Source of the DNA: Thiocapsa sp. KS1
GTDB lineage: Bacteria > Pseudomonadota > Gammaproteobacteria > Chromatiales > Chromatiaceae
Assembly (NCBI RefSeq): GCF_001499735.1
Contig: NZ_LN848260.1
Coordinates: 1-41,921 of the forward strand
DNA length: 41,921 bases
Direction: 5' to 3'
Shown here: positions 19,400-37,029 of the stretch, in pieces
Layout: every line of letters starts with the position of its first letter
Numbering within the stretch: the stretch's first letter is position 1
Translations under genes and position numbers: made by a program
Notes under the pieces: generated by a model
The model's input: the letters and a program-made list of their open reading frames with translations, nothing else
The model's database searches: none
Told to the model about the DNA's origin: nothing

Positions 19400-19950
19400 C
19401 CAAAGCGCGGAACATCATTCTCCGGGAACCATATTGCACAGAACGTGATGACCGGCAAGGAGCGAAGCATTCACTTCCCGACCGGCCATAACCGGCACTC
19501 TCCGAAACGACTCGACCGGAAACCCCGCCACGGATCGGCTTCCCCGGCCCACCGTCATCGCCGGCCTCGGGCTGAGGTCCGGATAGACGCGGTGCAGAGA
19601 GCGATCATACAGGGGAGCAAGACGAGCCATGCCGGGCGCCGGGTGGATTGGAGCATTGAAGAGCACGGCATCGAGGAGGGCCTGCAGGACGGCGTTCGGA
19701 TCGTTCGAGATCCGCGATCAGGGCAGGGCGATCCGTTACGGGGGGACGGTCAAGACGGCCATTCTCTTGCAAGGCAAGGGTCTTGATCATCGTCTCGCCC
19801 AAAACCCTATTCCAAGGATAGGCCATCACCACGCATGGCTTTGTATTTCAGAGTGTTACTTCCGGATGCCGCCCAATTTTCCCGCAGGTGGCCAAATCGA
19901 TGATCAAGGCTCTTGCAAACAACGCTCGCAGCGATTAATTTTATTTGGCG
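19400..19950. other. Gene-free stretch with decayed sequence
   Basis: Short frames on both strands overlap and none matches a family I know. An 11-bp inverted repeat CTTGATCATCG/CGATGATCAAG lies near 19781-19791 and 19899-19909. Probably a graveyard of small remnants between the helicase fragment and the tandem repeats. Confidence 0.4.
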
Positions 19951-19956
19951 TTTGAG

Positions 19957-20151
19957 CAGACGAAGGCTTGCGATTGCCGCCGGGATTCCGGCGGCCTGGA
20001 AAAAGCCACAGTTAGTTCTTCCTCGTCGCTCAGACGATGGGCTTGTGATTGCCGCCGGCAAATTCGGCGGCCTGAAAAAGTGTACAGTCTCTACGCCATC
20101 GTCGCTCAGACGACAGGCTTGTGATTGCCGCCGGGGTTCCGGCGGCTTGAC
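19957..20151. repeat. Tandem array, 74-76-bp period, about 2.6 copies
   Basis: Units start at 19957, 20031 and 20107. Each begins CAGACGA, continues GGCTTGTGATTGCCGCCGG, and holds a GC-rich hairpin (GCCGCCGG paired with CGGCGGC). The inter-hairpin segments of units 1 and 2 are themselves similar (AAAAAG, ACAGT, CGTCGCTCA), so the whole 75 bp is the repeat unit. Centromere-like, iteron-like or tandem structured-RNA roles are all possible; no adjacent gene explains it. Confidence 0.75.
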
Positions 20152-20218
20152 AACTGCGTGCTCAGGTATATCCCAGCGATTTCCCACGACGTGCACGCAT
20201 TCCTGTCCTTGATGACCT

Positions 20219-20365
20219 TTACGGCACGCCCTCTCCTTCCGCCCGCCTATACCGATCCCGGATCCTGATGAGCGTACGCAGCGCCTCGACATGGGTAGTG
20301 CGCTCGGTCAAGGTTGCGATCTCGATGCGCAAGGTGTTCACCGCCTGTTCTGCCTCGGCACCCTC
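20219..20365 (-). pseudogene. C-terminal remnant of a KfrA-like protein
   Basis: The minus strand reads EGAEAEQAVNTLRIEIATLT, ERTTHVEALRTLIRIRDRYR and ends at 20219. This matches the tail of the intact KfrA at 34518 (VQVAQLTERTAHFDDLRALI) and of the remnant at 33897. The rest of the gene is gone and Tn3 transposase sequence lies next to it. Confidence 0.6.
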
Positions 20366-23386: not shown

Positions 23387-23653
23387 TCAGACGTGGTCCG
23401 GCCTCAATCCGGCCTCTTGCCTGCCCCGACGCTTGATGGCCTCCATGTCGAGCGGCCCCGCGGGAGCGCTGTTTTCTCCCTCGATCAAGGCTTGCCGCAA
23501 GGCTTCCAGCCTGGAGGCGGCCTCCTGTTCCTGCAGCAGTCGCAGGGAATCGCGAATCACCTCGCTGACCGAGGCATAGCGCCCGCTTTCCACGAGGGTG
23601 ACGACAAAATCGTTCCAGTGGTCGCCGAGGGTGATGGTTTGGGTTCTCGCCAT
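23387..23653 (-). CDS. ParD-like antitoxin (orphan)
   Basis: This 88-residue protein starts at ATG 23653, with AGGAGG 8 nt upstream. MARTQTITLGDHWNDFVVTL then ESGRYASVSEVIRDSLRLLQ is the ParD pattern: ribbon strand, helix, then 'GRYxSxSEVIRxxLRLL'. The C-terminal helix EQEAASRLEALRQALIEGE would bind a ParE toxin. No ParE follows; downstream sequence has no recognisable toxin, so it appears orphaned. A short palindrome at 23686-23700 in its promoter is a likely autoregulatory site. It lies just outside the left end of the 10.1-kb transposon. Confidence 0.88.
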   Translation of the reverse strand: MARTQTITLGDHWNDFVVTLVESGRYASVSEVIRDSLRLLQEQEAASRLEALRQALIEGENSAPAGPLDMEAIKRRGRQEAGLRPDHV

Positions 23654-23685
23654 GATGCGTTCCTCCTGTGTACTCCTCCTAAGTA

Positions 23686-23700
23686 TAAGACTTTGTCTTA
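23686..23700. promoter_or_regulatory. Palindromic operator of the ParD-like gene
   Basis: TAAGAC-TTT-GTCTTA, an exact inverted repeat, lies 33 bp upstream of the parD-like start. Known ParD proteins bind such repeats in their promoter. Confidence 0.5.
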
Positions 23701-23835
23701 CATGGCAAGCAATCGTTTCACCGGTGCGGAGCGCCACGGCGCGCTGATCCTGCGCGTGGGTCTCGGGGTAGACCCAACAGTCGTGTCACCAGCCGCCACT
23801 TCTCTCAAGGCAAGGCCAGGCGAGTGCTCATGTCC

Positions 23836-23889
23836 AACCCGTACGGACGGTTCGATCTTGACATGGAGAGCCGGCTCCTCCTCGACTGA
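23836..23889 (+). pseudogene. Tn3 transposase C-terminal tail (second copy)
   Basis: The plus strand reads NPYGRFDLDMESRLLLD and a stop, the C-terminal signature of Tn3 TnpA. It differs in sequence from the 33.8-kb copy ([17 protein letters not shown]), so it comes from a related but different transposon. It joins the inverted 74-bp end at 23838 and is followed by another terminal repeat at 23902-23928. Confidence 0.75.
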
Positions 23890-23901
23890 GCCAGATGGCC
23901 C

Positions 23902-23928
23902 CTGGTGACACGACTGTTGGGTCTACCC
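23902..23928 (+). repeat. Internal Tn3-type terminal repeat
   Basis: These 27 bp, starting CTGGTGACACGACTGTTGGG, are exactly complementary to 23766-23792 and direct copies of 33849-33875. With 23765-23792 they enclose a 164-bp inverted-repeat unit resembling a Tn3-derived miniature element (TIME). Confidence 0.8.
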
Positions 23929-23976
23929 TTATAACGGCATGCCGCATCGCTCCTAGTCACACTCGCGTCAGGACGA

Positions 23977-24327
23977 TTGGATCAGGAACCTGCCGGCGGC
24001 GAGCGCCTGCACCCGGGTGAGGTTGGGATGTCGATGATTACGTACGGCGAGTTGTTGCTCGGCGCGGAGAAGAGCCAGCATCCGAAACAGGTTGCGGAGC
24101 GACTGCAACGCTTCGTCGAACTTGTCCCCGTGTTGGCGCTGCCGGACAACAGTCCGTCTCACTATGCCCGCATCCGAGCTGCGCTGGAACGCGCAGGGAC
24201 ACCAATCGGGGCCAACGATCTTTGGATCGCGGCACACGCTATGGCTTCCGGCCTGATCCTGGTGAGCAACAATTTGCGGGGGTTCGGTCGGGTAGCTGGG
24301 CTCACAACGGAGAACTGGGCACACTGA
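23977..24327 (+). pseudogene. 5'-truncated vapC (PIN-domain toxin)
   Basis: From about 24004 the frame reads PGEVGMSMITYGELLLGAEK, and later AGTPIGANDLWIAAHAMASG and LILVSNNLRGFGRVAGLTTE NW, the middle and C-terminal parts of a VapC PIN nuclease including the Asp in ANDLWIAAHA. The N-terminal strand with the first catalytic aspartate is missing; the sequence upstream is Tn3-derived. The break lies between the internal terminal repeat at 23928 and about 24004, so transposon activity probably removed the 5' end and its antitoxin. Confidence 0.8.
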
Positions 24328-24627
24328 CAGCGGCCTGCGCGAGCCTTAGCGTACGATATTCTCCGTTCTATGGAGTGACCCCGATGAGGCCGCCCAGGCG
24401 CTGGAGCGGGGCGACCCGCAACTGGGAACCAGACGCCCTCGTGCTCCTCAATCCTGGAAAACCGACGTCAAAGAAGGAGGTCGATTACCTGCACAACGAC
24501 ACCTGAGCGACGCGACATCTTATCTTGACAACGACCGCTCCTATCCGCGTACACCCGACACGTCTAGCGCCGCGGTCGGCTGACGAGCGCCGCCTCAACG
24601 ATTATCAGCCGGCCGTGGCAGCCGTCA
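24328..24627. other. Intergenic stretch without recognisable gene
   Basis: Frames here are short, mutually overlapping and match nothing I know. This is the gap between the vapC fragment and the luxI promoter. Confidence 0.4.
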
Positions 24628-24647
24628 AACTGACAACTCTGACAGTT
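24628..24647. promoter_or_regulatory. Candidate lux box upstream of luxI
   Basis: AACTGACAACTCTGACAGTT is a 20-bp interrupted palindrome with perfect 5-bp arms and fits the LuxR-type consensus NNCTG-N10-CAGNN. Its centre lies 74 bp before the luxI ATG, so a start site about 42 bp downstream would leave a leader of roughly 30 nt. Binding by the LuxR protein of this element is inferred. Confidence 0.65.
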
Positions 24648-24711
24648 ACCTAAGAACCTGATCTGCATTGAAATCACGCTCGTTTTCCAAGCGTGTATAG
24701 AAGGATTGGCC

Positions 24712-25284
24712 ATGGAGATGGTTTCAGGGACTCAGGCGGCTCTACCGCAAGGGGTTTATTCACAGGTTTCCTGCTATCGCCAAAAGGTGTTCGTCGAGCG
24801 CCTCGGTTGGGACTTAAGGGTGGAAAATGGAGAGGAGCGGGATCAGTTCGACCGGCCCGATACTGTCTACGTCGTCGCGCGTGACGACCATGGGCGTGTG
24901 ATCGGTTGCGCGAGGCTCCTTCCCACCACCCAGCCCTATCTGCTCGATGAGGAGTTTCCCGGACTGCTCAACGGGGTCCCTCCGCCCTCCTCGCCGGAGG
25001 TGTGGGAGCTCTCCCGCTTCGCCGCCGTGGATCTCAACCGCTCCCCCACCTCCCCAACGTATCAGTTCTCCTCACTGATCACCGTCGACCTGCTCAAGGA
25101 ATCAATCGCCTGCGCCGCTGCCTGCGGCGCCAAGCGGCTGATCACCGTCTCACCCATCGGGGTGGAGCGGTTGCTGCGGCGGGCAGGCTTCCACGCCCAC
25201 CGAGTGGGACCGCCGATGGTGGCCAAGGGGCACCCAGTGGTCGCGTGCCTGATTGAAACGGAACTGGCCACAGCGGGACTCTGA
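24712..25284 (+). CDS. LuxI-family acyl-homoserine-lactone synthase
   Basis: This 190-residue synthase would make an N-acyl-homoserine lactone from S-adenosylmethionine and an acyl donor. Invariant family residues are all present: Arg23 and Phe27 (CYRQKVF), Trp33 (LGWDL), Asp44 and Asp47 (DQFD), Arg68 (GCARLLPTT), Phe82, Glu99 and Arg102 (WELSRFA). The C-terminal acyl pocket has ITVSPIGVERLLRRAGF and HRVGPPM. ATG 24712 is preferred over TTG 24706 because AAGGA lies 6 nt upstream of it. A lux box is found at 24628. It heads the metabolic cluster, and the matching luxR is 7 kb downstream. Confidence 0.95.
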   Translation: MEMVSGTQAALPQGVYSQVSCYRQKVFVERLGWDLRVENGEERDQFDRPDTVYVVARDDHGRVIGCARLLPTTQPYLLDEEFPGLLNGVPPPSSPEVWELSRFAAVDLNRSPTSPTYQFSSLITVDLLKESIACAAACGAKRLITVSPIGVERLLRRAGFHAHRVGPPMVAKGHPVVACLIETELATAGL

Positions 25285-25345
25285 TCCGCTGTGAAAAGGC
25301 GCCTGGATGCCGAGCCGAAACAGAACATATAGGAGTATCAAGGCC

Positions 25346-26116
25346 ATGGCAGATATGGCACTGCTGTCGCTACTTTCCAAGCCGATCACCAGCGAGCCCT
25401 ATCGGGATCCGGATCACTTGGATCAATTGCGGTGCATTTTCGCGGAGCAGGGCTACGTTAAGTTGACTGGGTTCTTCGCCGAGCCCGTCTACGAGAGCTT
25501 GATGGCCGAGATCGAGGTAATACAGCGGAAGAAGCGGAAGCGCGATTTTCAGATGCCGGGCTACGCGACGCCGCGGATCATGTCGGTAGTCAGCGGTAAC
25601 GAGATCCTTGAATCGTCCGTGCTGCTGGCGGCGCTGTACGGCCACTACGAAATCAGGAAGCCACTTGCCACGATCATCGATCAGGACATCTTCGGCGTCC
25701 ATCACAGGGACGAGCTGATGGTGGTGAATCTACTCGAGAAACGCGGAGATACCCACGGCTGGCACCTCGACGATCCCCGCTATGCCTTCATCGCGGTCTT
25801 GAAGGCGACTCCCAACGATCAGGGGGGCTCGGTCGAGTACATCGTCCACTGGCGGAGCCTGTGCGTACAGCATGGGCTGGACGCGGAGCAGGATGTTGAC
25901 AAGGGGGTCGAGCTGGCGGCCAGCCTCGGCATGATACGCCGGGCCCACCACGAAGCCGGGGACTGTTACCTCCTCAATGCGGGTGAGTGCCTGCATCGCG
26001 TCACGCCGTTGACAGTCGATAGGAGCGAGCGGTGCGTATTGAACATGGCATTCGACGATCGGGCGTCCATTCCGTTCGGCGCCACCGCAGACTTGCTGTA
26101 CGGAGAGCGCGCGTGA
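25346..26116 (+). CDS. 2-Oxoglutarate/Fe(II)-dependent oxygenase
   Basis: This 256-residue enzyme probably hydroxylates or desaturates a small acid or amino-acid-like substrate with O2 and 2-oxoglutarate. The iron triad is His140 and Asp142 (GWHLDDP) with His217 (ECLHRVTP); Arg229 (SERCVLNMAF) fits the oxoglutarate carboxylate. The early segment FAEQGYVKLTGFF is the common 'G-hydrophobic-L-x-G-F' start of this fold. An aspartate rather than glycine in the HxD motif argues against a halogenase. ATG 25346 has AGGAG 10 nt upstream; the upstream in-frame ATG at 25307 does not. The following SDR gene may overlap its stop. Confidence 0.85.
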   Translation: MADMALLSLLSKPITSEPYRDPDHLDQLRCIFAEQGYVKLTGFFAEPVYESLMAEIEVIQRKKRKRDFQMPGYATPRIMSVVSGNEILESSVLLAALYGHYEIRKPLATIIDQDIFGVHHRDELMVVNLLEKRGDTHGWHLDDPRYAFIAVLKATPNDQGGSVEYIVHWRSLCVQHGLDAEQDVDKGVELAASLGMIRRAHHEAGDCYLLNAGECLHRVTPLTVDRSERCVLNMAFDDRASIPFGATADLLYGERA

Positions 26117-26145
26117 ATCTTGGGTCCGGCATCGGAGCGCCGCTC

Positions 26146-26919
26146 ATGGGCGGCGAGTTCGCTGAAAAAGTCATCCTCATCACCGGCGGGGGTCACGGGA
26201 TCGGAGCGGCTGCGGCGAGGTGCTTCGCCGAGGCGGGGGCGCGGGTCGCGTTAGCGGATATCGACGGGCAGGCCGGCCGCCGACTCGCCCAGGAGTTGAT
26301 CGAGGGTGGAGGGCAGACGCTTTTCGTGGAGGCCGACGTCTCTAAGGGCCGGGGGTGTGAATCGGCTGTCGAGCGAGCCCTCGATGCTTTCGGCGGCATC
26401 GACATCCTCTTCAATAACGTCGGAATCACCCGGCGCGCCACTGTGGTGGAGACGACCGAGGAGGAGTGGGACGCGGTGATGGACACCAACCTCAAGTCGG
26501 TGTTCCTGATGTGCAAGCGCGTTGTCCCGGTGATGGCCGCCAACGGCGGAGGCGTGATCATCAACACCGCTTCCGGCTGGGGGCTGGCTGGTGGAAAGGC
26601 GGCGGTCTCCTATTGCGCATCGAAGGGAGGCGTCGTGTTGCTGACCAAGGCGATGGCCCTGGATCACGGCAAGGAGAATATTCGCGTGAACTGCATCTGT
26701 CCCGGGGACACGCGTACCAGGATGTTGCTCGAAGAGGCGCGGCAACTGAATCTGCCCGACGATAGGCTGATCGAGGAGGGCGTCGATCGCCCCTTGGGCC
26801 GGGTCGGTGAGCCAGGCGAGATCGCCGCTTCAGTGATGTATTTGGCGTCGTCACTCGCGTCGTTCGTGACCGGCACCGCGTTGGTGGTTGATGGTGGGGG
26901 ATTGGCGGGAAGTGCGTAG
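26146..26919 (+). CDS. Short-chain dehydrogenase/reductase (SDR)
   Basis: This 257-residue classical SDR is complete: cofactor loop TGGGHGIG (13-20), Asp38 in ALADID suggesting NAD(H), FNNVG (89-93), catalytic Ser143 with Tyr156 and Lys160 (SYCASK), and the C-terminal TGTALVVDGGG. It would oxidise an alcohol or reduce a ketone, plausibly on the product of the preceding oxygenase. The start could also be GTG 26113, which overlaps the upstream TGA (GTGA) and has GGAG 7 nt before it; ATG 26146 gives the usual N-terminal length. Its TAG overlaps the next start codon by one base. Confidence 0.93.
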   Translation: MGGEFAEKVILITGGGHGIGAAAARCFAEAGARVALADIDGQAGRRLAQELIEGGGQTLFVEADVSKGRGCESAVERALDAFGGIDILFNNVGITRRATVVETTEEEWDAVMDTNLKSVFLMCKRVVPVMAANGGGVIINTASGWGLAGGKAAVSYCASKGGVVLLTKAMALDHGKENIRVNCICPGDTRTRMLLEEARQLNLPDDRLIEEGVDRPLGRVGEPGEIAASVMYLASSLASFVTGTALVVDGGGLAGSA

Positions 26920-28139
26920 TGAAGCTCACCTCTCGGAACAGGACCAAAGAGATGAATGCCATTATCACAGCGAATCCGCAGAGCGCGTCGCACCGAGTCG
27001 CTGAGCTGGCGTACCGCTACCATGGCCTCAAGCTGCCGATCGAAGACGACCCTGAGCTGGGACAGCTTCTTTCCCGAATACCGGTGACGACGAAGGCGGA
27101 CCTCGTCGCCTGCGGGAGTGAGCGTGAGGAGGAGTATCTACGCGGCGCGGTCCTGTTCAGCGAAACCTCCGGATCGACCGGCATTCCACTCCAGACACCG
27201 AGGGGCGCAAAGGATTTGCAATGGAACGTCCTCAATCAGATTGCTGCTTACAAGAGGCACCTTGAGCCGGGCGTGGACCGCATCGCGGTGATCCATCCGT
27301 CGGTGCTGAGCCCCTTCGTGGAGGCGTCCTGCCATGCGCTGACCCTGATGGGGGTCGGCTATGTCCGGCTCTTTCCGATTCCGGGGATCTGCAGCTATGA
27401 GCGGATCCATTCAGTGCTCGCTCGATATCGTATCACCGCCATCATGACCACTCCGACCTTGGCCTACAAGGTGCTCTACGAAACGAGGGACCTGCGGGCG
27501 AGCGGCGACCGGCTGCCATTGCGCAAGGTGTTGCTGACCGGTGAGCTGATCAGCCTGGAGTGCGCGGCCAACATGGAGACGATTCTCGGGCCGGGAAGCC
27601 GCGTCACGCCCTTCGTCTATGGCTCCAGCGAGACCGCAACGCTGATGATCGGCACCCACGAGGGTCGCTATCTGCCGATTCGGGAGGATTTCGTTTTCGA
27701 GGTGGAGCCTGAAGATGGCGCTGGAGCCTCCGCCGAGGGGGAGATCACTGGAAGGCTCCTGGTTACTTGGTTGCGCGACGGAATGCTGCCGATCCTGCGC
27801 TATGACACAGGCGATCGCTTCACGTGGGTGAGGACGGATGACTCGGGCTACTTTCGTTTCGAGGGACGGGTGGACGGCGGGGGCATCGATCCCGCCCGCG
27901 CGCAGATAATCGACCAGGCGGTGTTTTCGCTTCCACTCTCCGTCTACCACTATCAGTACGAGACCGAACGGAAGCGGCTCTCCATCGTGACCGGCGGGTG
28001 CAAGTGCGATGAGCGCCTGATCGAGCGGGCGCTTCTCGACGGAGGGGGGCTGGCCGCCGATACGCGGATCGTGCTCGATCCGGAAGAGAGCGATTTCTAC
28101 GGTTTCTCGCCTTTACCCAAGTTGTGGCGAATCAGCTGA
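26919..28139 (+). CDS. PaaK-like AMP-forming acyl ligase
   Basis: This 406-residue adenylate-forming enzyme resembles phenylacetate-CoA ligases. The phosphate loop is SETSGSTGIPLQTP, the second core motif is VYGSSETATL, and the hinge Asp lies in LRYDTGDRF. It would activate a carboxylate as acyl-AMP and pass it to CoA or an amine. At 406 residues it is a little short for the family, mainly in the C-terminal cap, where the usual KxxG catalytic lysine region is not obvious. No carrier protein is nearby, so transfer to CoA or directly to a nucleophile is more likely. GTG 26919 or ATG 26952 could be the start. Confidence 0.85.
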   Translation: MKLTSRNRTKEMNAIITANPQSASHRVAELAYRYHGLKLPIEDDPELGQLLSRIPVTTKADLVACGSEREEEYLRGAVLFSETSGSTGIPLQTPRGAKDLQWNVLNQIAAYKRHLEPGVDRIAVIHPSVLSPFVEASCHALTLMGVGYVRLFPIPGICSYERIHSVLARYRITAIMTTPTLAYKVLYETRDLRASGDRLPLRKVLLTGELISLECAANMETILGPGSRVTPFVYGSSETATLMIGTHEGRYLPIREDFVFEVEPEDGAGASAEGEITGRLLVTWLRDGMLPILRYDTGDRFTWVRTDDSGYFRFEGRVDGGGIDPARAQIIDQAVFSLPLSVYHYQYETERKRLSIVTGGCKCDERLIERALLDGGGLAADTRIVLDPEESDFYGFSPLPKLWRIS

Positions 28140-28245
28140 GCGAGGCGGCTTGCGGGCGGCTCGTAAAAGATAGCGGGCCGGGCGGATGTTGAATCGCGCC
28201 GCCCTCGACGCCCTATCGACAAACCACCCTTAAGAGGACTTTCCG

Positions 28246-28983
28246 ATGCCACATTGGCTTATCACCGATCTCGTCATCGTAACCATCTATGGGCTGCTGC
28301 ACACGGTGCTCACGACGAAGCCGTTGGTTGCGCTCTACAACACGTTGTTCCCCAGCTATACCTGGAATATCTCCTACAGCATCGTATCGGTCATCACCCT
28401 AGTGCTCGGGTTTCACTACTGGGAGAGCTCCGGTGTCTATCTCTTTCAGCTCACGCCCGGCAGTCTCGCCTACCACGCGAGCACCTTCGTCCTGGCGTTC
28501 TCGCTGATCGCGTTCTTCTACTTCTTCAAGTTCACCACATCGTTCTGGCAGTGGCTCGGGGTGAAGCAAGTGGTTCTGCGGGTTCGCGGCAAGGAGCAGC
28601 CCGCCTACTACCGGGTGCGCCAGGAGGGAATCAAGCGCTACATCCGTTTTCCCCACCACACCGCTCTAATCGTGCTGTTCTGGGCCCATCCGGTCATGAC
28701 CCTGGACACGCTGTTCCTAGCGGTGAGCGCGACGATCTATCTCTATCTCGGCACCTATCACCAGGATCTGCGCGGGTTAGCCGCCATTGGCCGGGAGTGG
28801 CAGGAATACCGCGCCAATACCGCCCTGCTTATCCCAGGCCCTCGGGTTATCGCGCGGATGATCCGGGACATCTATTCCGGCGACGAAGGCCGCGACTCGC
28901 CGGAAAGAAAGGCCGCTGAGAGCGGCGTGCCGGAGAGATCTCCGCAGGGCGCCACCTTCGCATCGGAAGAGTCGACCGCCTAG
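28246..28983 (+). CDS. Integral membrane protein, NnrU/isoprenylcysteine-methyltransferase-like
   Basis: This 245-residue protein has about five hydrophobic segments (about 4-25, 40-58, 70-95, 140-160 and 165-180). The C-terminal half follows the ICMT/PEMT/NnrU layout: GIKRYIRFPHHTALIVLFWA, HPVMTLDTLFLAVSATIYLY, then GREWQEYRANTALLIPGP. In ICMT this region binds S-adenosylmethionine, but NnrU members have no proven reaction. A disordered polar tail follows. AGAGGA lies 7 nt before the ATG. In this cluster it could methylate or transport a lipophilic product, or be a redox protein; I cannot decide. Confidence 0.75.
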   Translation: MPHWLITDLVIVTIYGLLHTVLTTKPLVALYNTLFPSYTWNISYSIVSVITLVLGFHYWESSGVYLFQLTPGSLAYHASTFVLAFSLIAFFYFFKFTTSFWQWLGVKQVVLRVRGKEQPAYYRVRQEGIKRYIRFPHHTALIVLFWAHPVMTLDTLFLAVSATIYLYLGTYHQDLRGLAAIGREWQEYRANTALLIPGPRVIARMIRDIYSGDEGRDSPERKAAESGVPERSPQGATFASEESTA

Positions 28984-29084
28984 CGCGGATCTCTCACCAG
29001 GATGGCAGGCCGGTGTCTAGCTCGGTGGCTCGCCGTCTGCATCGAGCCGCATCACCATTCACCAATTCACCAAGGAACCTCATT

Positions 29085-29885
29085 ATGTTCGCTGTGAAAC
29101 TGAAGGACCTGCAAACCGAGTTGGTCGAGCATCCGATCTACCATGCCGTTGAGAGCATGGATGAACTGCGCCGGTTCATGCGAATTCACGTTTTTGCCGT
29201 ATGGGATTTCATGAGTCTGGCCAAGAGCCTGCAGAATTCTCTGACCTGTACCCGGCTTCCCTGGCTTCCCCCGCCGGACGAGGCATCGGCGCGGCTGATC
29301 AACGACATCATCCTCAACGAGGAGTCCGATGTCGATTGCAACGGCGCCGCTGCGAGTCACCTGACACTCTATCTGGAGGCGATGCGCGAGGTCGGCGCAC
29401 CGACGGATCTTTTCGATGGGTTTTTGGGCCGTGTCAGGGAGGGTGCCGCTGTCGACGACGCGCTGCGCGAGGCCGGCGTTCCGCCTTACGCGCAGGAATT
29501 CGTGAGCTCGAATATTTCTCTGGCGATCCAGGGCAGCGTAGAGGAGGTCGCCAGCAGCTTTCTGTTCGGCAGGGAGGAATCCATCCCGAAGATGTTCCGT
29601 GCCCTTTTGCGGAAGTGGGGCATCCCTGCGGATGAGGCCCCCGGCATGATCTACTATCTGGAACGGCACATCGAGCTGGATAGTGAGCAGCACGGCCCCG
29701 CCGCGACGAAGATTCTGGAAAGGCTGATCGGAGATGACCACGCGCGCTATGCCAGAGCGCTGCGCAGCGCGCAGGAGGCGATCAGTGCGCGGATTCAGCT
29801 TTGGGACGGAGTGCTCGACGAGCTTTCCAGTGGCAAGGGGCGGACCGACCAAGGGTCCGCAGTTGACAAAGTGGTACACGAGTGA
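29085..29885 (+). CDS. DUF3050 protein, heme-oxygenase-like di-metal oxidase candidate
   Basis: This 266-residue protein matches the DUF3050 pattern: LVEHPIYHAV, MRIHVFAVWDFMSLAKSLQ, INDIILNEESD, ASHLTLYLEAM, FGREESIPKMF and YYLERHIELDSEQHGP. The last block gives His195, Asp199 and His203 with helical spacing, and Glu79/80, His92 and Glu164 are further candidate ligands, as in heme-oxygenase-like diiron oxidases. Such enzymes cleave C-C bonds or N-oxygenate amines in natural-product pathways. That role here is inferred from fold-level similarity. ATG 29085 has AAGGA 8 nt upstream; an in-frame start at 29013 gives an unlike N-terminus. Confidence 0.85.
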   Translation: MFAVKLKDLQTELVEHPIYHAVESMDELRRFMRIHVFAVWDFMSLAKSLQNSLTCTRLPWLPPPDEASARLINDIILNEESDVDCNGAAASHLTLYLEAMREVGAPTDLFDGFLGRVREGAAVDDALREAGVPPYAQEFVSSNISLAIQGSVEEVASSFLFGREESIPKMFRALLRKWGIPADEAPGMIYYLERHIELDSEQHGPAATKILERLIGDDHARYARALRSAQEAISARIQLWDGVLDELSSGKGRTDQGSAVDKVVHE

Positions 29886-29916
29886 GCTGGTCGTCGGCCA
29901 GAAGGAGGTGACTGAG

Positions 29917-30114
29917 ATGATGTCTATCGATGCTCTTGAGGCGAAGCGAGAAGCGGCCGAGGGTTATCCTGCCCATGCCACTGAGCGCCGTCGCGACTGG
30001 GGACGCTCGGATTTCCATGAAGGCGCGGAGACGAAGGGGGGGGCGGCTTCATCGGGAGTGGCTTTCGATGAGGGGATTACCTCTCGCTCGACCCAGCAGT
30101 CGGAGGGGATCTGA
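29917..30114 (+). CDS. 65-residue small protein with strong ribosome binding site
   Basis: GAAGGAGGTGA, nearly the full anti-16S complement, ends 6 nt before ATG 29917. The peptide (MMSIDALEAKREAAEGYPAH, ending TSRSTQQSEGI) is polar, acidic/basic balanced, and lacks cysteine, a signal peptide or a carrier-protein DSL motif. A second ATG at 29920 is equally placed. It fills the gap between the DUF3050 and Rid genes in the same direction and stops 5 bp before the Rid start. The function is unknown: a small subunit, a regulator or a modified-peptide precursor are all possible. Confidence 0.65.
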   Translation: MMSIDALEAKREAAEGYPAHATERRRDWGRSDFHEGAETKGGAASSGVAFDEGITSRSTQQSEGI

Positions 30115-30119
30115 ATAAA

Positions 30120-30503
30120 ATGGAAAAGGTCTACAGCGGCGTCCCCTGGGAGAAGACCGTGGCCTACTCCCGAGCGACCAAGGGTGGCGGTCACGTCTTC
30201 GTTTCCGGCACAACTGCAGTCGATTTGGAAGGAAGGGTGGTCGGCCCCGGAGACGTCTACACCCAGTGCAAATTCATCTTCGAGAAGATCGGAAAGACGC
30301 TCGCTGAGCTGGGCGGGGCGTTCGACGATGTGGTGCGCACCCGTACCTTCATCACCGATATCGACCGTTTCGACGATTTCGCGCGGGCCCATGCCGAAAC
30401 GTTTGTTGGGATCGATCCCGCTGCGACCTGTGTCGAGATCTCGCGTCTGGTCGATCCGGGTCTCATGGTCGAGATCGAAGTCGACGCGATCATCGAAAGG
30501 TAG
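30120..30503 (+). CDS. Rid/YjgF-family protein lacking the catalytic arginine
   Basis: This 127-residue protein has the chorismate-mutase-like Rid fold: KTVAYSRATKGGGHVFVSGT, DVYTQCKFIFEKIGKTLAEL, DDVVRTRTFITDIDRF and LVDPGLMVEIEVDAI. In canonical RidA the sequence PARSCVEV supplies the substrate-binding arginine; here it is PAATCVEI, with alanine in that position. It is therefore unlikely to be a standard imine deaminase and may bind or process a pathway intermediate instead. It follows the 65-residue gene by 5 bp and precedes the methyltransferase by 8 bp. Confidence 0.92.
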   Translation: MEKVYSGVPWEKTVAYSRATKGGGHVFVSGTTAVDLEGRVVGPGDVYTQCKFIFEKIGKTLAELGGAFDDVVRTRTFITDIDRFDDFARAHAETFVGIDPAATCVEISRLVDPGLMVEIEVDAIIER

Positions 30504-30511
30504 GTCTGGTC

Positions 30512-31333
30512 ATGGACAGACAGAGTGGCTCCTACGCCTTCGGCGAATTTGACGACACCGAGTATCAACGCCTAATCAAGCAGGGTAGCGCAACATGGTC
30601 GTTCGAGCGGGAGTTTCTGGAGTGGGCCGGGCTGAAGACCGGGGATCGGGTGGCGGACGTGGCGTGCGGTCCCGGCGTTATTTCCCGGCTCATGGCGGAA
30701 TATGTCGGCGACGACGGCTTCGTCACGGGCATTGATATCAGCAACGAGCTGTTGGAGACCGCAGAGGCGATCAAGCGTGAAAACTCCGCTTTCGAGCGGG
30801 GCTCCGTCTACGACCTTTCCGATCATCGGGAGCAGTACGACTTTGTCTATGCTCGCCTGCTCTTTCAGCACTTGGAGCGTCCGTGGGACGCGATGCGTCA
30901 GATATTCTCGATTCTCAAGCCTGGCGGTCGGATCTGCGTGCTCGACAGCGATGAGAGCGTTTTCGGGATCTTTCCGCCCCACGGAGACCTCTCCTCCCTG
31001 ATCCGGGAGAGCCAGGCGCTTCAGGCGCAGAGGGGCGGCGATCGGTTCGTCGGCGGGAAGCTCGGTTATCTGTTGCGAGGCTCAGGGTTCGAGAAGGTCG
31101 CTCCTCGAATTTTCGTGATGACCCCCGAGAACATGGGACGGGACACGTTCCTTGATGTCGTATTGAAATTCCGGCCGCAACTATTTCCAGCTGCAGTCAG
31201 GGAAGAGGCGACCGAGCGGATGCAGGCGATCTACGATCACGCGCTTGAGCATATGACATACGGCCATAACGGCTCCTTTGTGGTGAAGGCGGTGAGGCCG
31301 GTCCCTGGACCAGCGACTAGGGCGAAGGCCTGA
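30512..31333 (+). CDS. Class I SAM-dependent methyltransferase
   Basis: This 273-residue enzyme has a Rossmann methyltransferase core: motif I VADVACGPGVISRLM (about 47-61), GIDIS (acidic loop binding the ribose), YDFVYARLLFQHL (motif IV region) and LKPGGRICVLDSDE (motif VI). The lid region after residue 155 (RESQALQAQRGGDRFVGGKL) is typical of small-molecule O- or N-methyltransferases. It is the last gene of the plus-strand cluster before the IS5-type remnant and luxR. The substrate is unknown, presumably the cluster product or a precursor. Confidence 0.9.
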   Translation: MDRQSGSYAFGEFDDTEYQRLIKQGSATWSFEREFLEWAGLKTGDRVADVACGPGVISRLMAEYVGDDGFVTGIDISNELLETAEAIKRENSAFERGSVYDLSDHREQYDFVYARLLFQHLERPWDAMRQIFSILKPGGRICVLDSDESVFGIFPPHGDLSSLIRESQALQAQRGGDRFVGGKLGYLLRGSGFEKVAPRIFVMTPENMGRDTFLDVVLKFRPQLFPAAVREEATERMQAIYDHALEHMTYGHNGSFVVKAVRPVPGPATRAKA

Positions 31334-31560
31334 GCGCCTCGTCAGCCCTCCCCTATGACCCCGACGGCAATCGGCTTCAGCGCATCGATAGCCAGGCAGA
31401 ATAAGGCTTCGATGTCGCAGGAGACCCCGCGTGCGAGCCTATGCCGCTCGCTCGGCATCGCATCCTAGGGCGTGTCATCAATTCCTCGAGCGTGCCATGA
31501 TTCTCGTCCATCACGATCGAAACATTGAGGAGAGCCAAGATCGCACAACGCCGCCATACC

Positions 31561-31630
31561 CGCCCGAATCGAGCTCCCGCGTCCGTCGTCGTACATGGCT
31601 TTGATCTTGTGAATCATGACCCACCCTTGC
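31561..31630 (-). pseudogene. IS21 istA N-terminal remnant
   Basis: The minus strand reads VMIHKIKAMYDDGRGSSIRA, the beginning of IstA-type transposases up to its helix-turn-helix. The continuation is scrambled. Confidence 0.6.
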
Positions 31631-31751
31631 AAATCGTCGTCCCCCGCACTGGCCAAAAAAGTGGCGCAGCCTGGGGCATATCGGCCTAAAAATCACACCC
31701 TGTAGTGGGTCAAAATAAATGGCCGTAGGTGGATCAGTTTAGGTGGCCATT

Positions 31752-32107
31752 AACACAACCCGACGGGTTTTTATCTGACGGGAGGGCAGGCCTCGGATTT
31801 GGTCGGTGCCGATCACTTGCTGGTCGATCTGGAGGTCGAAGCACTGCTCGCGGACAAGGCCTATGATGCGGATGAGCGGGTGCTTGATGTGTTGGAAGCA
31901 TGCGGGGCGATAGCGGTGATTCCACCGAAGCGCAACCGCCTGGTCCAACGCGCCTACGACAAGGAATTGTATAAAGCGCGCCATCTGATTGAAAATTTTT
32001 CCTAGAAGATCAATTAGTTAAGAGCGATTGCTACTCGATATGACAAGCTGTCTCGCAACTTTCTCGCCGGTGTGCACTTGGCCTCAGCATGCGTCCTGCT
32101 TAATTGA
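31752..32107 (+). pseudogene. IS5-type transposase, C-terminal part, interrupted
   Basis: The frame reads NPTGFYLTGGQASDLVGADH, LLADKAYDADERV, AVIPPKRNR and LYKARHLIENF, then meets TAG and a second TAG. After these it resumes in the same frame as LRAIATRYDKLSRNFLAGVH to the normal end. Two stop codons and the lost 5' half make it a pseudogene. The DDE aspartate lies in LLADKAYD and the glutamate in HLIENF. Confidence 0.85.
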
Positions 32108-32120
32108 TGACACGCCCTAG

Positions 32121-32450
32121 AACGCCTTGCGGCGCCGCGCAATAGGCCCCATCGAATGTTATGGCACTACTTTGAGGATTGCGGTCGCCGTGTACAAAAG
32201 AATCAGCGACTTAATCGATGCTAGGAGGGCAATATCAATGGGGTACTGTTAAATGTGGGCTAGCGACCCTCTGCACATCGTCCGTTGTCTATCCCAGTTT
32301 CCGGAAAAATCCTTTATACTTGATTCTTCTGAGGGGTGTGTCCACCTAATTTGACGCTACTCAAGGGCGATCATCCCAGGTAGCGTTATATTTGTCAGGG
32401 TAGCGGCACCACACCCGAAGCGGCGGTGCCGGGCCTTCAAGGAGGGGCCG
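32121..32450. other. luxR upstream region
   Basis: This 330-bp leader has no gene. It holds an inverted repeat ACGCTAC/GTAGCGT (32354-32360 and 32380-32386), which may be an operator or leader hairpin. Promoter elements are not clear enough to place. Confidence 0.4.
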
Positions 32451-33161
32451 ATGGATAGCTGGCAGGAAGATCGGCTGCACTTGCTGCTGACAATCGACAA
32501 CGAGCGGGAGCTGCTCGACAAGCTCTCATCGGTCGCCTGCGGCCTCGGCTTCGATTATTGCGCCTACGGTCTGCGCACGCCAGTGCCGCTCTCTCGGCCG
32601 CAGATCATCATGCTCAACAACTACCCGCTCGACTGGCAGGCCCGTTACCAGGAGAAGGGGTACTTGGCCATCGACCCCACGGTGGATCACGGCGCGCGCT
32701 CCTCGCTGCCGCTGATCTGGAGCGACGAGCTCTTCGCCTCGGCCCGCGAGCTGTGGGAGGAGGCCCGCTCCTTCGGCCTGCACTTCGGCTGGGCTCAATC
32801 CAGCCGGGACGCCCAGGGTATGGGGGGCTTGTTGACGCTGGCCCGCTCCGACGAGCCGCTCTCCGACGCGGAGCTGCGCGACAAGTCCGCGAAGATGAGC
32901 TGGCTCACGCAGATCGCCCACATTGGCATGTCGCGCTGCCTGGGGTCCCGGCTGCTCCCCGATACCGAGGGCCGTCTTACTGAACGGGAGCTGACGGTGC
33001 TGCGCTGGACCGCAGACGGCAAGACCTCCGGGGAGGTTTCGACCATCCTCGGCATTTCCGAGCGCACCGTCAACTTCCACATCAACCACGCGGTGGAGAA
33101 GCTCGGAGCCGCCAACAAACTAGCCGCTGCGGTGAAGGCGGCGGTGCTTGGGATGCTCTAG
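32451..33161 (+). CDS. LuxR-family quorum-sensing regulator
   Basis: This 236-residue transcription factor has an autoinducer-binding domain and a C-terminal GerE/LuxR helix-turn-helix. Ligand-contact residues of the family are present: Trp62 and Tyr66 (DWQARYQ), Asp75 (AIDP) and Trp90 (LIWSD). The DNA-binding domain runs from LTERELTVLRWTADGKTSGE through STILGISERTVNFHINHAVE. AAGGAGG lies 5 nt before the ATG, a strong site. With luxI at 24712 and a lux box upstream of that gene, it should switch on the cluster at high cell density; that wiring is inferred. Confidence 0.95.
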   Translation: MDSWQEDRLHLLLTIDNERELLDKLSSVACGLGFDYCAYGLRTPVPLSRPQIIMLNNYPLDWQARYQEKGYLAIDPTVDHGARSSLPLIWSDELFASARELWEEARSFGLHFGWAQSSRDAQGMGGLLTLARSDEPLSDAELRDKSAKMSWLTQIAHIGMSRCLGSRLLPDTEGRLTERELTVLRWTADGKTSGEVSTILGISERTVNFHINHAVEKLGAANKLAAAVKAAVLGML

Positions 33162-33254
33162 CGGCCTGTCGGGCTTTGGCGCCTGACCACCTGTCGCTTT
33201 GCCCGAGCCCGGTAGGCGCGGTCCGCCGTCTCGTTGGGCCCCGTGCCTCGGCCC

Positions 33255-33395
33255 AACCTCCTCCTCCAGCCAGCCGAAGAAACGGCGCATGCCGTACCAA
33301 ACACCGTCCTCCCAATCGCCGTCGCCCTCAATGACCCAGGCGCGGTCGGCGTCCGTCAGGTCGCGCCAGGGCACGTCCGTCGCAATGCCGATTGC
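33255..33395 (-). pseudogene. Possible UvrA-like fragment
   Basis: The minus strand reads GIATDVPWRDLTDADRAWVI, EGDGDWEDGVWYGMRRFF and GWLEEE. It resembles a segment of mobile-element UvrA (excinuclease ABC) proteins. No ATP-binding motifs remain and the flanks are unrelated. The identification rests on this short stretch alone. Confidence 0.4.
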
Positions 33396-33509
33396 CAGCC
33401 AGCAGCTAGACGCGGAATGCCGCAGCGGCGCCACCATGCGGGTGGCGCCGTTCATCCTGCTCCGGTGTGGACGATGCGGATCTGGAATCTGCTCTGGGCT
33501 CGGTGATGA

Positions 33510-33836
33510 CGCGCGCATCGTCGCGCGATCCACGAGGACCTCAACGTCGTCGAGCAGTGGAATGGAGCCACGGACTTCGTCTTCTTTGCCCGGCGTGGCG
33601 AGATGGCCAGCAACCGTCGTGAGGACCATGAGCTCAGCATGCTGGCCCTGCACCTGATCCAGAACTGCATGGTCTACATCAACACGCTGATGATCCAAAC
33701 GTTACTGGAGAGGCCGCATTGGCAGGGACGGCTGACGCCGCGCGACTATGCGGCACTGACGCCCCTGATCTGGGAGCACGTCAACCCGTACGGCCGCTTC
33801 GAGTTGGACATGAGCACTCGCCTGGCCTTGCCTTGA
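33510..33836 (+). pseudogene. Tn3-family transposase, C-terminal fragment
   Basis: About 108 codons read [60 protein letters not shown] and [19 protein letters not shown], the end of Tn3 TnpA including the last catalytic region. The 5' part is lost at an in-frame stop (33507). The normal stop codon lies 40 bp before the transposon end at 33876. The final codons belong to the 74-bp inverted repeat. Confidence 0.88.
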
Positions 33837-33896
33837 GAGAAGTGGCGGCTGGTGACACGACTGTTGGGTCTACCCCGTCTCGGCACGGCATCGCCC

Positions 33897-34340
33897 TACC
33901 CTTGCGCCCCGCCCGACCGATCCCGGGTCCGGATGAGCGTCCGCAGCTCCTCGACATGGGCAGCGCGCTCGGCGAGGGTCGCGATGATCTCCTCCTCCTG
34001 CGCCACGCTGCGCTCCGCCCGCTCGGCGATCACCGCCTGAGCCTCGTGGAGCGCCGCATGCGCCTCCTCGTGGGTGCGTCGCTCCGTCGCAAACTCAGCG
34101 CGCAGACCCTCCGCATCGCCGCGTGCCCTGATCCAGATCCAGCTTCACCTCAAGACGCGCAGCGCCTCGAGCTCCCCGTCGAGCTTACCGATCTCGGCAA
34201 GGCACGCTCCTGCTCCAGGTCGCGGTGTGCGCGGGCGAGGGCCTCGCGCTCGCCGGTGAACTGCCCTGCACATCCTGCCAGGCGGTCCCCCGGACCTGCC
34301 GCAAGACCGGCTCGACCGCCCGGGTAAACTGATAGGTGGC
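33897..34340 (-). pseudogene. KfrA-like pseudogene
   Basis: The minus strand, in at least two frames, encodes a KfrA-like coiled-coil: FTGEREALARAHRDLEQERA, LAEIGKLDGELEALRVL, then RAEFATERRTHEEAHAALHE, AEQ-rich helices and the tail ERAAHVEELRTLIRTRDRSG. The N-terminal DNA-binding domain is missing. Upstream it keeps a degraded copy of the kfrA operator (34350-34386) and a following 60-bp stretch also found upstream of the intact gene, so it is a duplicated and decayed kfrA locus. Confidence 0.65.
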
Positions 34341-34517
34341 AATCTGTATGTAATAGTATGTTGTATTTTGTTACATATTATTTACAAAATATCTCAACGA
34401 CATAGACCTGAACCTGGAGACGACGGGTCTGCTGCCCCCCCGATGAGGTCATCGAGGTCGGGCATCGGCTGCTCGGCCTCGCCCCACTCTCCATGCCTCG
34501 CGGATCTGGGCAACCCG

Positions 34518-35438
34518 TCAGGGGGACTGGGGTTTACGGGGCGCACGCGCGCCTTTGGTCGTGCTTGGGGATTCCAGGGTCGGGATGAGTGCCCGTAGAT
34601 CGTCGAAGTGGGCGGTACGCTCCGTGAGCTGAGCCACCTGCACGCGCAGCTCACCCAACTGATCGCGCAGCTGCGCTGCTTGGTGTTCGAACTCGATCCT
34701 CGCCTTCCGCTCTGCCGTGGTCTGCTCCTTGGCGGCAGCCGCCTCCGACACTTTCAGCTTCACCTCACCTTGCAATTCGGCCAGCGCCGTCCGGGCCTGT
34801 GTGAGATCTGCCTGCAAACGTGTCCGCAGCTCCTCGGCGCTCTGCAACTGTCCATCCATTCGCCCCTTTTGCTCGCCTGCCGCGGCGAGTTCGCCACGCG
34901 CCGCGGCGAGTTCCGACTCCAGGGTCGTGACCTGACGCCCTCGCTCCTCGACCCGGGCCTCCAGCTCCCGACCTTTGGCAAGGACGCGCTCGATCTCCTG
35001 CCGAGCCTCCATCAGGTTGCGCTGTGTGTCGGCATGGGCCGACTGTTCCCGCTCCAGCGCGGCGAGGGTCTGCTCCAACTCCGCCGAGATCTGATCGGCC
35101 GCGTCCACCGCCTCGTTGCGCTCGTTTTCGTAACGGTCGTGGGCATCCTCGAGCGCTTGGCGCTCCTCGGCGAGTTTGGCTGCATGCTGAGCAGAGGCTT
35201 CCTTCCAGACCAGGCGCCCCGCTTCCTCGAAGGCCTGTTGCAGCGAAGGGGGGATGTCGATGATCTCGGCGCGGATGCGCTCCTCTTGACGGGTCTGCCG
35301 CCAAGCCTTCAACGCCTCGCTGATGGTCGTGAAGCTGCCGCCGCCGAGCGCTTTGCGGACCGACGCCATGGTCGGATTCTGACCGGCGGCGACCAGGGCG
35401 TCGGCAACCTCGATGATTTGCTCGTGGGTGATGGCCAT
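34518..35438 (-). CDS. kfrA: KfrA-like plasmid DNA-binding coiled-coil protein
   Basis: This 306-residue protein has the KfrA N-terminal DNA-binding domain (about 1-115): QIIEVADALVAAGQNPTMAS, VRKALGGGSFTTISEALKAW. A long coiled coil follows (about 70-290) rich in Glu/Ala/Gln heptads. Known: KfrA of IncP plasmids represses its own promoter and forms a multimeric scaffold aiding stable inheritance. A perfect palindrome at 35450-35484 lies 12 bp upstream of the ATG, fitting autorepression. The C-terminus is basic and disordered (TTKGARAPRKPQSP). It lies downstream of the Toprim gene on the same strand. Confidence 0.88.
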   Translation of the reverse strand: MAITHEQIIEVADALVAAGQNPTMASVRKALGGGSFTTISEALKAWRQTRQEERIRAEIIDIPPSLQQAFEEAGRLVWKEASAQHAAKLAEERQALEDAHDRYENERNEAVDAADQISAELEQTLAALEREQSAHADTQRNLMEARQEIERVLAKGRELEARVEERGRQVTTLESELAAARGELAAAGEQKGRMDGQLQSAEELRTRLQADLTQARTALAELQGEVKLKVSEAAAAKEQTTAERKARIEFEHQAAQLRDQLGELRVQVAQLTERTAHFDDLRALIPTLESPSTTKGARAPRKPQSP

Positions 35439-35449
35439 TGTCGTAAATC

Positions 35450-35484
35450 GTAGTAGTATGTTGTAAAATACAACATACTACTAC
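35450..35484. promoter_or_regulatory. Palindromic kfrA operator
   Basis: Arms GTAGTAGTATGTTGTA (35450-35465) and its exact complement (35469-35484) flank AAA. A degraded copy starting GTAATAGTATGTTGTA precedes the kfrA remnant near 34350. Position and symmetry fit a KfrA binding site. Confidence 0.8.
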
Positions 35485-35564
35485 ATACAAATCATGTCAA
35501 CGATATAGACCCGAACCTGAAGACCACGCGCCTGTACCTGCCCGACGCGGTCCTCGAGGTCTTG

Positions 35565-36542
35565 TCAAACCGCAAAGCGATCAATCAAAGGCGGATCAGG
35601 GCGGCTAGGCCGAGGTCGGCCCCCGCCCGCCCTCAGGACATCGTTCCAGTCCTGCCCTTCGCCGGGCTGGTCGCGGCAGATGACGAAGTCCTCCCGGCCC
35701 GTCTCGCGGGCGAGGGCCTCGATCCGGTCGGCGAGGGCGTGGCCGCCGGGATCGTTGTCGGTGGCGATCACGATCCGAGACCCCGGTCCCATCCGGCCGA
35801 TGGCACTGCGGAGCAACTCCGGCTGGGTGGGGTTGAGGCTGCCGCCGGTGCTCGCATAGCGGGCGGTGTCGTCCGGGTGCAGAACGGCATGGGAGAGCGC
35901 ATCGATACCGCTCTCGGCGATCACCAGAGCGGTGTCGGTGCTGTTTGCCGCGGAGAACCACAGGCCCTTCTCGCCGCCGGGGGCAAAGCCGGTGAACCCG
36001 CGGTTCTTCACCTCGTAGCCGCAGGGACCCTCCTGGTCGGCATGGGGAAAGATGGCGTTGGAGCGAAAATCCACCTTGAGCTTGCCGGCAAAGCGCGCGC
36101 TGTTGAGAAAGGACGCCGGCAGGCCCCGCTCTTCGAGGTAGCGGTGAAACAGCAGGGGTTTCATGCGGGCGAGTTCGAGCAGGACACGGGCGCGGTCGCG
36201 GGAGATTCGGGCGATCTCGCGGGCGAAGAGGTCGGGATCGGGCCGGGTGACATGGCGCGCCCCGCCCAGCCACGGGCGCAGCTCCTGCCGCACCCCGCCG
36301 AGCGAGCAGTTCCGGCGCTTCTGCACGAAGTCGATGATCGAGCCGTTGTCGAGGTCGTTCTGCACCGAGAAGTAAATCCAATGCCGATCCTCGGCTCTGG
36401 CGATCACGATCTTCTCGCCTGCCCGGGTGCGCATGACGACGGAGTTCTTCGAGCTGGCTCGGCGATCGAGGACATAGTCCTGCGCCGCGGCATACTCCGA
36501 GAGATTGATGAGTGTTTTGAAGTCGTCGAGCTCTTCGTCCAC
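35565..36542 (-). CDS. DUF3991/Toprim-domain plasmid protein
   Basis: This 325-residue protein starts at GTG 36542, with GGAGG 5 nt upstream. The N-terminal half matches DUF3991 (AAAQDYVLDRRASSKNSVVM, SIIDFVQKRRNCSLGGVRQE). The C-terminal Toprim fold has Glu in ALVIAESGIDAL and the metal pair in IVIATDNDPGG. Toprim folds occur in primases, topoisomerases and nucleases; DUF3991-Toprim proteins are common on plasmids, often next to mobilisation genes, and are thought to be primase-like. No helicase domain or zinc finger is present. A 72-bp remnant of a related gene lies at 10405-10476. Confidence 0.88.
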   Translation of the reverse strand: MDEELDDFKTLINLSEYAAAQDYVLDRRASSKNSVVMRTRAGEKIVIARAEDRHWIYFSVQNDLDNGSIIDFVQKRRNCSLGGVRQELRPWLGGARHVTRPDPDLFAREIARISRDRARVLLELARMKPLLFHRYLEERGLPASFLNSARFAGKLKVDFRSNAIFPHADQEGPCGYEVKNRGFTGFAPGGEKGLWFSAANSTDTALVIAESGIDALSHAVLHPDDTARYASTGGSLNPTQPELLRSAIGRMGPGSRIVIATDNDPGGHALADRIEALARETGREDFVICRDQPGEGQDWNDVLRAGGGRPRPSRPDPPLIDRFAV

Positions 36543-37029
36543 GTTCGCCTCCCCTCCTCCGCCTGAGCTTTTCCTGGGCCATAAACTCCGCTTATATCTT
36601 CTTTTTCCTACTGCCCAAAGTTGTGTTAGGACAGCGGGGAGGACGAAGTGTGAAGTGTGATGTTTGCCGGTCTTGGCCGACGTCAGGAGGCCTCAAGAGA
36701 AGTCCGTAGCCGAAGGCTAGGACTCCTTTTGAAGGGCACATGGATGTGCCCGCAAGGCCGCCGTAGGCGGGGCGAAGCCAGGGATGGCGAAGGGTAGGTC
36801 TTTAAGTCCGGCCGTGTGAGTGCCGTCGTTTTTTGAGTAAGCGCGAGCTTGAGAGCGTGAGGGTTGGAGGTTCGCGGCGATCGTATCGGAGGTCTGGCTG
36901 ACACTGGGAGCGTCTGTGATGGCGTGGTGAACGGCAACACCCCGAAGGGATACTTCAGGGGTCCGGCTCGCCAGCGGTTAGGAAAGGAATATAAAGGATA
37001 AAGAAGGAAAGGATAAGGCGTGAAAAAGT
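36543..37029. other. Intergenic region between the Toprim gene and oriV
   Basis: No gene is called over these 490 bp. The middle holds a run of three hairpins at 36701-36770 (see separate entry), and the right part leads into the AT-rich origin. Frames here (for example 37093-36683 on the minus strand) are shadows of the repeats. Confidence 0.5.
36701..36770. ncRNA. Three consecutive hairpins, candidate structured RNA or ssDNA signal
   Basis: In order: AGTCC-G-TAGCC-GAA-GGCTA-GGACT followed by CCTTTT; GGGCACA-TGGA-TGTGCCC (36734-36751); and CCGCC-GTA-GGCGG. All are perfect or nearly so and closely packed, near the origin. The first plus the T-run could terminate plus-strand transcription. 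Together they could be a small RNA, a single-strand initiation site or part of a transfer origin; the sequence alone does not decide. Confidence 0.35.

Follow-up and report, generated by a model that had tools for sequence, protein, structure and literature searches.

TnTIR, a transposon of Serratia marcescens SS-1 reportedly described by Wei et al. in 2006, is an element that we take to belong to the Tn3 family. It carries the signalling genes spnIR (PMC6433178, PMC4122931; the Wei et al. reference is cited in PMC13113151 and PMC6930789), and in these sources this luxI/luxR pair occupies more than one genomic place, one of them a plasmid, and is neighboured by pinR and a transposase gene. TIME-COMPs are Tn3-derived non-autonomous composites of up to 11,421 bp, whose past movement is read from duplications of 5 or 6 bp (PMC4133298, PMC13367494). 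They are bounded by two TIME copies with Tn3-type ends that may be inverted and measure 38 bp in the Pseudomonas examples, lack an internal transposase, and carry resistance genes, a plasmid replication gene or a resolvase. Here we analyse a 10,112-bp unit of Thiocapsa sp. KS1 at positions 23765-33876, bounded by inverted Tn3-type ends that were read base by base and carrying a luxI-to-luxR cargo. It lies in a stretch of 41,921 bp (NZ_LN848260.1), hereafter the window.

We consider it likely, although unproven, that this unit is a non-autonomous, composite-like element with ends of the Tn3 family that entered a plasmid in a single Tn3-type transposition. Like the TIME-COMPs in the papers cited above, it has Tn3-type ends, no internal transposase and a 5-bp duplication at its outermost borders. 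Its left side qualifies in form as a TIME, whereas its right side is a 358-bp tnpA fragment; because the right side lacks the second TIME boundary, we call the unit TIME-COMP-like without classing it as a TIME-COMP, and by analogy it should work like one. Its cargo, signalling and biosynthesis, also differs from that reported for TIME-COMPs. With TnTIR it shares a transposon-borne luxI/luxR pair, but neither a transposase nor a pinR gene was found in the unit, and luxI is followed by a metabolic operon of seven genes. The original prediction, made from the DNA alone, had called such a transposon cargo an unusual route for spreading a signalling-and-metabolite system; the cargo is real, but signalling genes on a transposon have a precedent in spnIR. 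Among the open-licence papers listed, neither titles nor the beginnings of abstracts described a Tn3-borne luxI biosynthetic operon.

Ends, footprint and lineage of the unit

The original prediction had described perfect 74-bp inverted ends, GTCTC on both outer sides and a tnpA 3' end on the right, and all three were borne out base by base or by profile (Table 1). The two ends are reverse complements at 74 of 74 positions, with identity dropping further in, and the right end matches PF01526 positions 293-389. What that prediction missed is that the left outer end is a tnpA 3' tail too, a copy of the right-end tail; no native left end was found. The match extends over 74 bp rather than 38 because each end consists of a tnpA 3' tail. 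On the left, a second tail follows whose repeat agrees with the outer one at 32 of 38 positions, ends at 23928/23929 and has a changed terminal base (AGGG versus GGGG), so that 23765-23929 forms a 165-bp MITE/TIME-like piece of two tnpA tails head to head. Two inverted end pairs are possible, 23765/33876 with a duplication and 23765/23929 without one. As the inner left end is altered in its terminal base and is not accompanied by a matching duplication, 23765/33876 is the only consistent pair.

When ends were scored as present at up to 11 mismatches of 38, position 23765 was the sole left-type end in the window, and the right tnpA fragment is consequently without a second repeat. Two random 5-mers of the window agree with a probability of 0.00145 (GTCTC itself has a frequency of 0.0008), which rises to about 0.003 for two possible inverted pairs. 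The ends and their footprint are thus real and well above chance. Solo right-type ends also occur in the window at 11661 (5/38 mismatches) and, weaker, at 10652 (11/38), and are perhaps remains of elements of the same lineage.

We searched 142 genomes, including that of KS1, for relatives of the tnpA remnant. Long matches were present in four (G001, G002, G010 and G079), at 88-91% identity; in each of them the DNA match begins at window 33519, and the protein match begins at 33510. The 38-bp tnpA-side ends are identical to those of G079 and G002 (38/38) and agree at 34/38 positions with those of G010 and G001. Furthermore, the entire 74-bp tail is identical (74/74) in G002, of the same genus, and in G079, of another genus of the family. 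Perfect identity over 74 bp is therefore a sign of a circulating lineage rather than separate evidence for joint movement, and we rejected it as proof that the two ends moved together recently.

Nine further stretches, eight from relatives and one from the host chromosome, were scanned for ends. Complete elements with tnpA and both ends were present in two, each with a 5-bp duplication at homologous termini (G010:C2, AAGAT/AAGAT; G079:C95, TAAAA/TAAAA). G002:C64 contains a 237-bp end pair without a duplication, and the other six stretches contain one end only. The G079 element (7,754 bp; ends 38/38 and 37/38) and the G010 element (6,651 bp; both ends 34/38) resemble the KS1 unit in having a tnpA tail at one terminus and a 5-bp duplication, but differ from it in their cargo and in having a complete tnpA and a gene for a serine recombinase. 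Their own two ends have only a 39-bp repeat in common, against 74 bp in the KS1 unit. Their TnpA proteins, of about 1000 amino acids, both score above the NF033527 cut-off, and full-domain Tn3 transposases are present in G002, G010 and G079. Two genes of the G079 element (L045 4089-7071) look DUF1254-like by eye, and this lineage may carry metabolic genes elsewhere. With 38-bp repeats that start GGGG and are related to those of elements encoding Tn3 TnpA, and with a 5-bp duplication, the KS1 ends belong to a genuine Tn3-family lineage.

The unit lacks machinery of its own. By homology, the TnpA remnant comprises the last 108 residues (890-997) of a 997-residue protein. In the host assembly no other Tn3 transposase was found: its single PF01526 match is the window remnant, and a full TnpA query gave the same result. 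Searching the window with the G079 TnpR gave no hit at E<=1 (the search did not extend to a res site), and a minus-strand frame at 33123-33698 had no family match. Judged by its gene content, the unit is non-autonomous and composite-like. Of the predicted "Tn3-type transposon", then, the Tn3-type ends, the 5-bp duplication and the luxI-to-luxR cargo stand, but tnpA is a remnant and neither a tnpR-like gene nor a native left end was found. Mobilisation in trans by the TnpA of other elements is plausible, because G002, G010 and G079 hold full-domain transposases, and G002 and G079 are identical to the unit at their tnpA-side ends.

In the mechanism that we propose, the Tn3 transposase would come either in trans from a G079- or G002-like element or from a tnpA that was lost later; it would recognise the two 38-bp repeats, at ends that are both tnpA 3' tails in inverted orientation, and join them to the target by paste-and-copy. 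A single event of this kind would leave GTCTC on either side of the unit. The window yielded no gene resembling tnpR, so the cointegrate would have to be resolved by ordinary recombination or would stay fused. The passenger would be a luxI-led operon (synthase, 2-oxoglutarate-dependent hydroxylase, short-chain dehydrogenase/reductase (SDR), AMP ligase, MddA-like protein, DUF3050 protein, RidA and methyltransferase) together with luxR.

The luxI operon and its relatives

The LuxI/LuxR pair is encoded by open frames with full domains, an acyl-homoserine-lactone (AHL) synthase and a regulator, with dN/dS ratios of 0.20 and 0.18. In all nine cargo genes that were compared with Thiocapsa imhoffii this ratio was between 0.10 and 0.23, which fits purifying selection. 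The lux-box-like site lies about 60 bp upstream of luxI, occurs once in 41.9 kb and is the same at 19 of 20 bases in T. imhoffii. LuxR with AHL probably binds this predicted site, and would thereby activate the entire operon in a positive feedback loop. Between the methyltransferase gene and luxR lies an IS5-family remnant with a transposase fragment at 31778-32005 (NF033580, 51 bits; cut-off 110).

Table 1. Features of the Tn3-ended unit and its borders in the KS1 window
Feature	Position	Strand	Basis
GTCTC, left direct-repeat copy, 5 bp	23760..23764		sequence read
Left outer end: 38-bp Tn3-type inverted repeat and 36 bp of tnpA 3' tail, reading leftward	23765..23838	+	74/74 with right end
Second, diverged tnpA 3' tail, reading rightward, head to head with outer tail	23839..23929	+	comparison of tails
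PIN-domain gene without N-terminal part	23977..24327	+	profile positions 29-119 of 120 matched
lux-box-like 20-mer AACTGACAACTCTGACAGTT	24628..24647	+	single window match to a pattern devised post hoc
luxI-type acyl-homoserine-lactone synthase	24706..25284	+	PF00765, 109.6 bits
HalD/BesD-family Fe/2-oxoglutarate enzyme, HxD motif	25307..26116	+	PF23169
Short-chain dehydrogenase/reductase (SDR)	26134..26919	+	profile match
AMP-binding ligase, start probably ATG 26952	26919..28139	+	Burkholderia glumae relative annotated coenzyme F390 synthetase-like
Protein distantly like methanethiol S-methyltransferase MddA	28246..28983	+	NF045656, 67.9 bits, below cut-off 270; no Pfam match
DUF3050 protein	29013..29885	+	profile match
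RidA-family protein	30120..30503	+	profile match
S-adenosylmethionine-dependent methyltransferase	30512..31333	+	profile match
IS5-family remnant, 34-bp inverted repeats 31450-31483 / 32102-32135, 82% complementary	31450..32135		repeats and fragment
luxR-type receptor/regulator	32451..33161	+	PF03472, 136.6 bits; PF00196, 64.6 bits
tnpA 3' remnant, includes right end 33803-33876	33519..33876	+	DNA identity to four relatives, 88-91%
GTCTC, right direct-repeat copy, 5 bp	33877..33881		sequence read

In halogenases of the HalD/BesD family, Ala or Gly typically occupies the position of the Asp of the HxD motif. H153-x-D155 and H230 are conserved in five of five HalD-like sequences, and because the Asp is retained the KS1 enzyme is predicted to be a hydroxylase. 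The solved structures that match it are halogenases and lysine hydroxylases (8 distinct sequences). BesD is paired with BesC, and the combination of a DUF3050 protein with a HalD-like enzyme in the KS1 operon recalls this pair. PMC4520260 predicts for DUF3050 a haem-oxygenase-like fold with a potential di-iron centre, and the reaction of BesC is treated in PMC13108848. We infer an amino-acid-like oxidative chemistry for the operon product. In the listed entries of the 7 papers that mention DUF3050, no product is named.

Beyond the window, a LuxI match above 80% identity was present in one of the 142 genomes, Thiocapsa imhoffii DSM 21303 (G006), which was also alone in having a LuxR match above 80% over the whole protein. 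When cargo DNA was compared with 194 genomes of the family (best 2 places per genome), T. imhoffii was the only full-length match besides KS1 itself. Its operon, on a 9.3-kb contig (NZ_NRSD01000043), is 84% identical in DNA to window 24605-31413 over the whole length and has the same eight genes in the same order, but unlike in KS1 no luxR adjoins it and the stretches read contain no Tn3 ends of this lineage. The luxR region, 86% identical to window 32349-33190, lies on a separate 75-kb contig. Tn3-type sequences do occur elsewhere in T. imhoffii: contig C16 bears an end of this type, and contigs C34 and C10 contain matches to Tn3 transposases.

More distant relatives contain the core of the operon. 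Plasmids bglu_3p of Burkholderia glumae and p1 of Robbsia andropogonis share with KS1 the genes for the DUF3050 protein, HalD-like enzyme, SDR, ligase and MddA-like protein, but in the stretches read there was no luxI or luxR relative and no Tn3 end of this lineage. On these two plasmids the core is accompanied by major facilitator superfamily transporter genes (L063 8093-14891; L064 8173-17567). A gammaproteobacterial metagenome-assembled genome (G050) has the core, with no luxI and no DUF3050 gene in the stretch read. Across the class, HalD-like protein matches occurred in 11 of 369 genomes, the KS1 genome included, and were mostly weak.

Proposed joint movement and its alternatives

The original prediction had proposed that the whole 10.1 kb moved as one unit. 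The duplication supports the joint insertion of the outer ends; joint movement of everything between them we infer, as neither an empty site nor a second copy was found. Several observations weigh against transposition of the unit with its present cargo. The duplication shows that the outer ends entered together, and does not thereby show that the present interior lay between them; nor does the 74-bp identity, common to elements of the same and of another genus, itself tie the ends together. In T. imhoffii the operon and luxR stand on separate contigs, and no Tn3-type ends (up to 12/38 mismatches) were found on the 9.3-kb contig or in 20 kb around luxR.

Searches for the site before and after insertion count on the same side. 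A query of joined flanks (604 + 601 bp) revealed no empty site among the 142 genomes (best 3 places per genome): its right flank matched G002:C64 at 95% from window 33892 on, and its left flank was recovered only in part, at 74% in G037, and otherwise as short, weakly matching pieces. Against plasmids, the left flank found 11 records that cover at best 62% of the query (ParD in 7 of the 10 listed, 3 being unannotated), and the right flank found zero. No second copy of the 10.1-kb unit was found in plasmids or among the 194 family genomes (best 2 places each). The most similar plasmid-like contig, G002:C64, lacks the whole of 20.3-33.9 kb. Signal control is subject to similar reservations: the lux-box-like pattern was written post hoc, with 0.13 matches expected by shuffling and at least one match in 12 of 100 shuffles; the consensus behind the assignment is one that we assume; and no palindrome with two or fewer mismatched pairs was found upstream of luxI and luxR.

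Further searches concerned the unit and its left piece. The unit with its flanks matched 14 plasmid records, none covering 80% of the query. The 165-bp left piece had no other full-length copy in the 142 genomes (best 5 candidates each), and no plasmid record contained 80% of it.

Because the cargo forms two separate blocks in T. imhoffii, and the stretches read around them contain no Tn3 ends, part of the cargo may postdate the ends. The main rival, which we judge unlikely, takes this further: the outer ends were inserted jointly as a Tn3-derived element, and the operon and luxR came in later by recombination and insertion sequence activity, with loss of tnpA and tnpR. The conservation of 24605-31413 and 32349-33190 as separate blocks would fit such a history, as would the IS5 remnant between operon and luxR, the stop of tnpA homology at 33519 and the truncation of the PIN gene beside the left end. 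However, the left end is a tnpA tail, so that whatever was inserted was no intact Tn3 element, and nothing was found that would point to a former tnpR.

An improbable alternative is that two independent Tn3-type fragments came to surround the operon and that the GTCTC match is coincidental. The solo ends elsewhere in the window and the 74-bp tail as a common property of the lineage give it some footing, but the match has the length and register found in two intact relatives, and its chance probability is as low as calculated above, for one preset pair or for two. Finally, an unresolved cointegrate, with operon-bearing donor DNA between two transposon copies, is what an element without a resolvase would leave and would also have outer duplications and suit a mosaic plasmid, but cointegrate copies lie in direct orientation whereas in KS1 the two outer ends are of one kind, both tnpA tails, and inverted, and we rejected this very improbable reading on that ground.

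Plasmid setting and significance

The window is an entire contig (C4), 41,921 of the 10,379,592 bases of an assembly in 43 contigs. It looks like a plasmid from its genes, which include ParA-like (ParA_partition, 146.8 bits, below the cut-off of 180), KfrA_N and Toprim matches; no exact terminal overlap of at least 16 bases was found. G002:C64 aligns with window 18797-20058 (96%) and 20031-20320 (85%) and then directly with 33892-36867 (97%). The extra DNA in KS1 consists of the Tn3-ended unit and a 3.4-kb stretch to its left with AAA_25 and ParD genes, and because the left flank is missing from G002:C64, this contig neither supports nor refutes an empty site. Window 20221-20320 and 33892-33985, which flank the extra 13.6 kb, both resemble, in diverged form, a single stretch of G002:C64, which its position and inspection by eye mark as the 3' end of a KfrA-like gene. 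This arrangement suggests plasmid mosaicism through recombination.

Other genes of the window were also noted. Directly left of the unit lies a ParD-family antitoxin gene (23387-23737), with no ParE recognised by eye in the adjoining open reading frames and none searched for. A 1292-residue protein (14436-18314) has a C-terminal CHAT match (PF12770, 28.9 bits; cut-off 24), and the adjoining XerC/D-like recombinase gene (13328-14317) is 91% identical in DNA to one beside the G010 Tn3 element. A gene pair at 1794-3584, whose second member encodes an AbiEii-type nucleotidyltransferase and whose first has no NCBIfam match, is perhaps an abortive-infection or toxin-antitoxin system.

Should the unit and its cargo have travelled together, an entire signal-controlled biosynthetic operon would have been mobilised by non-autonomous Tn3-derived ends in the way already known for resistance genes, and islands of this type would escape any annotation that relies on transposase genes alone. 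The operon genes for the predicted HalD-like hydroxylase, the DUF3050 enzyme, the ligase and the SDR stand under luxI here, whereas the core in B. glumae and Robbsia has no luxI nearby. We tentatively raise the possibility that transposase-free, Tn3-derived ends package a signal synthase, its receptor, their binding site and the controlled operon, and that such packages ride on the other Tn3 elements of the family between plasmids. Moves without a resolvase would fuse replicons, and could thereby help to build mosaic plasmids.

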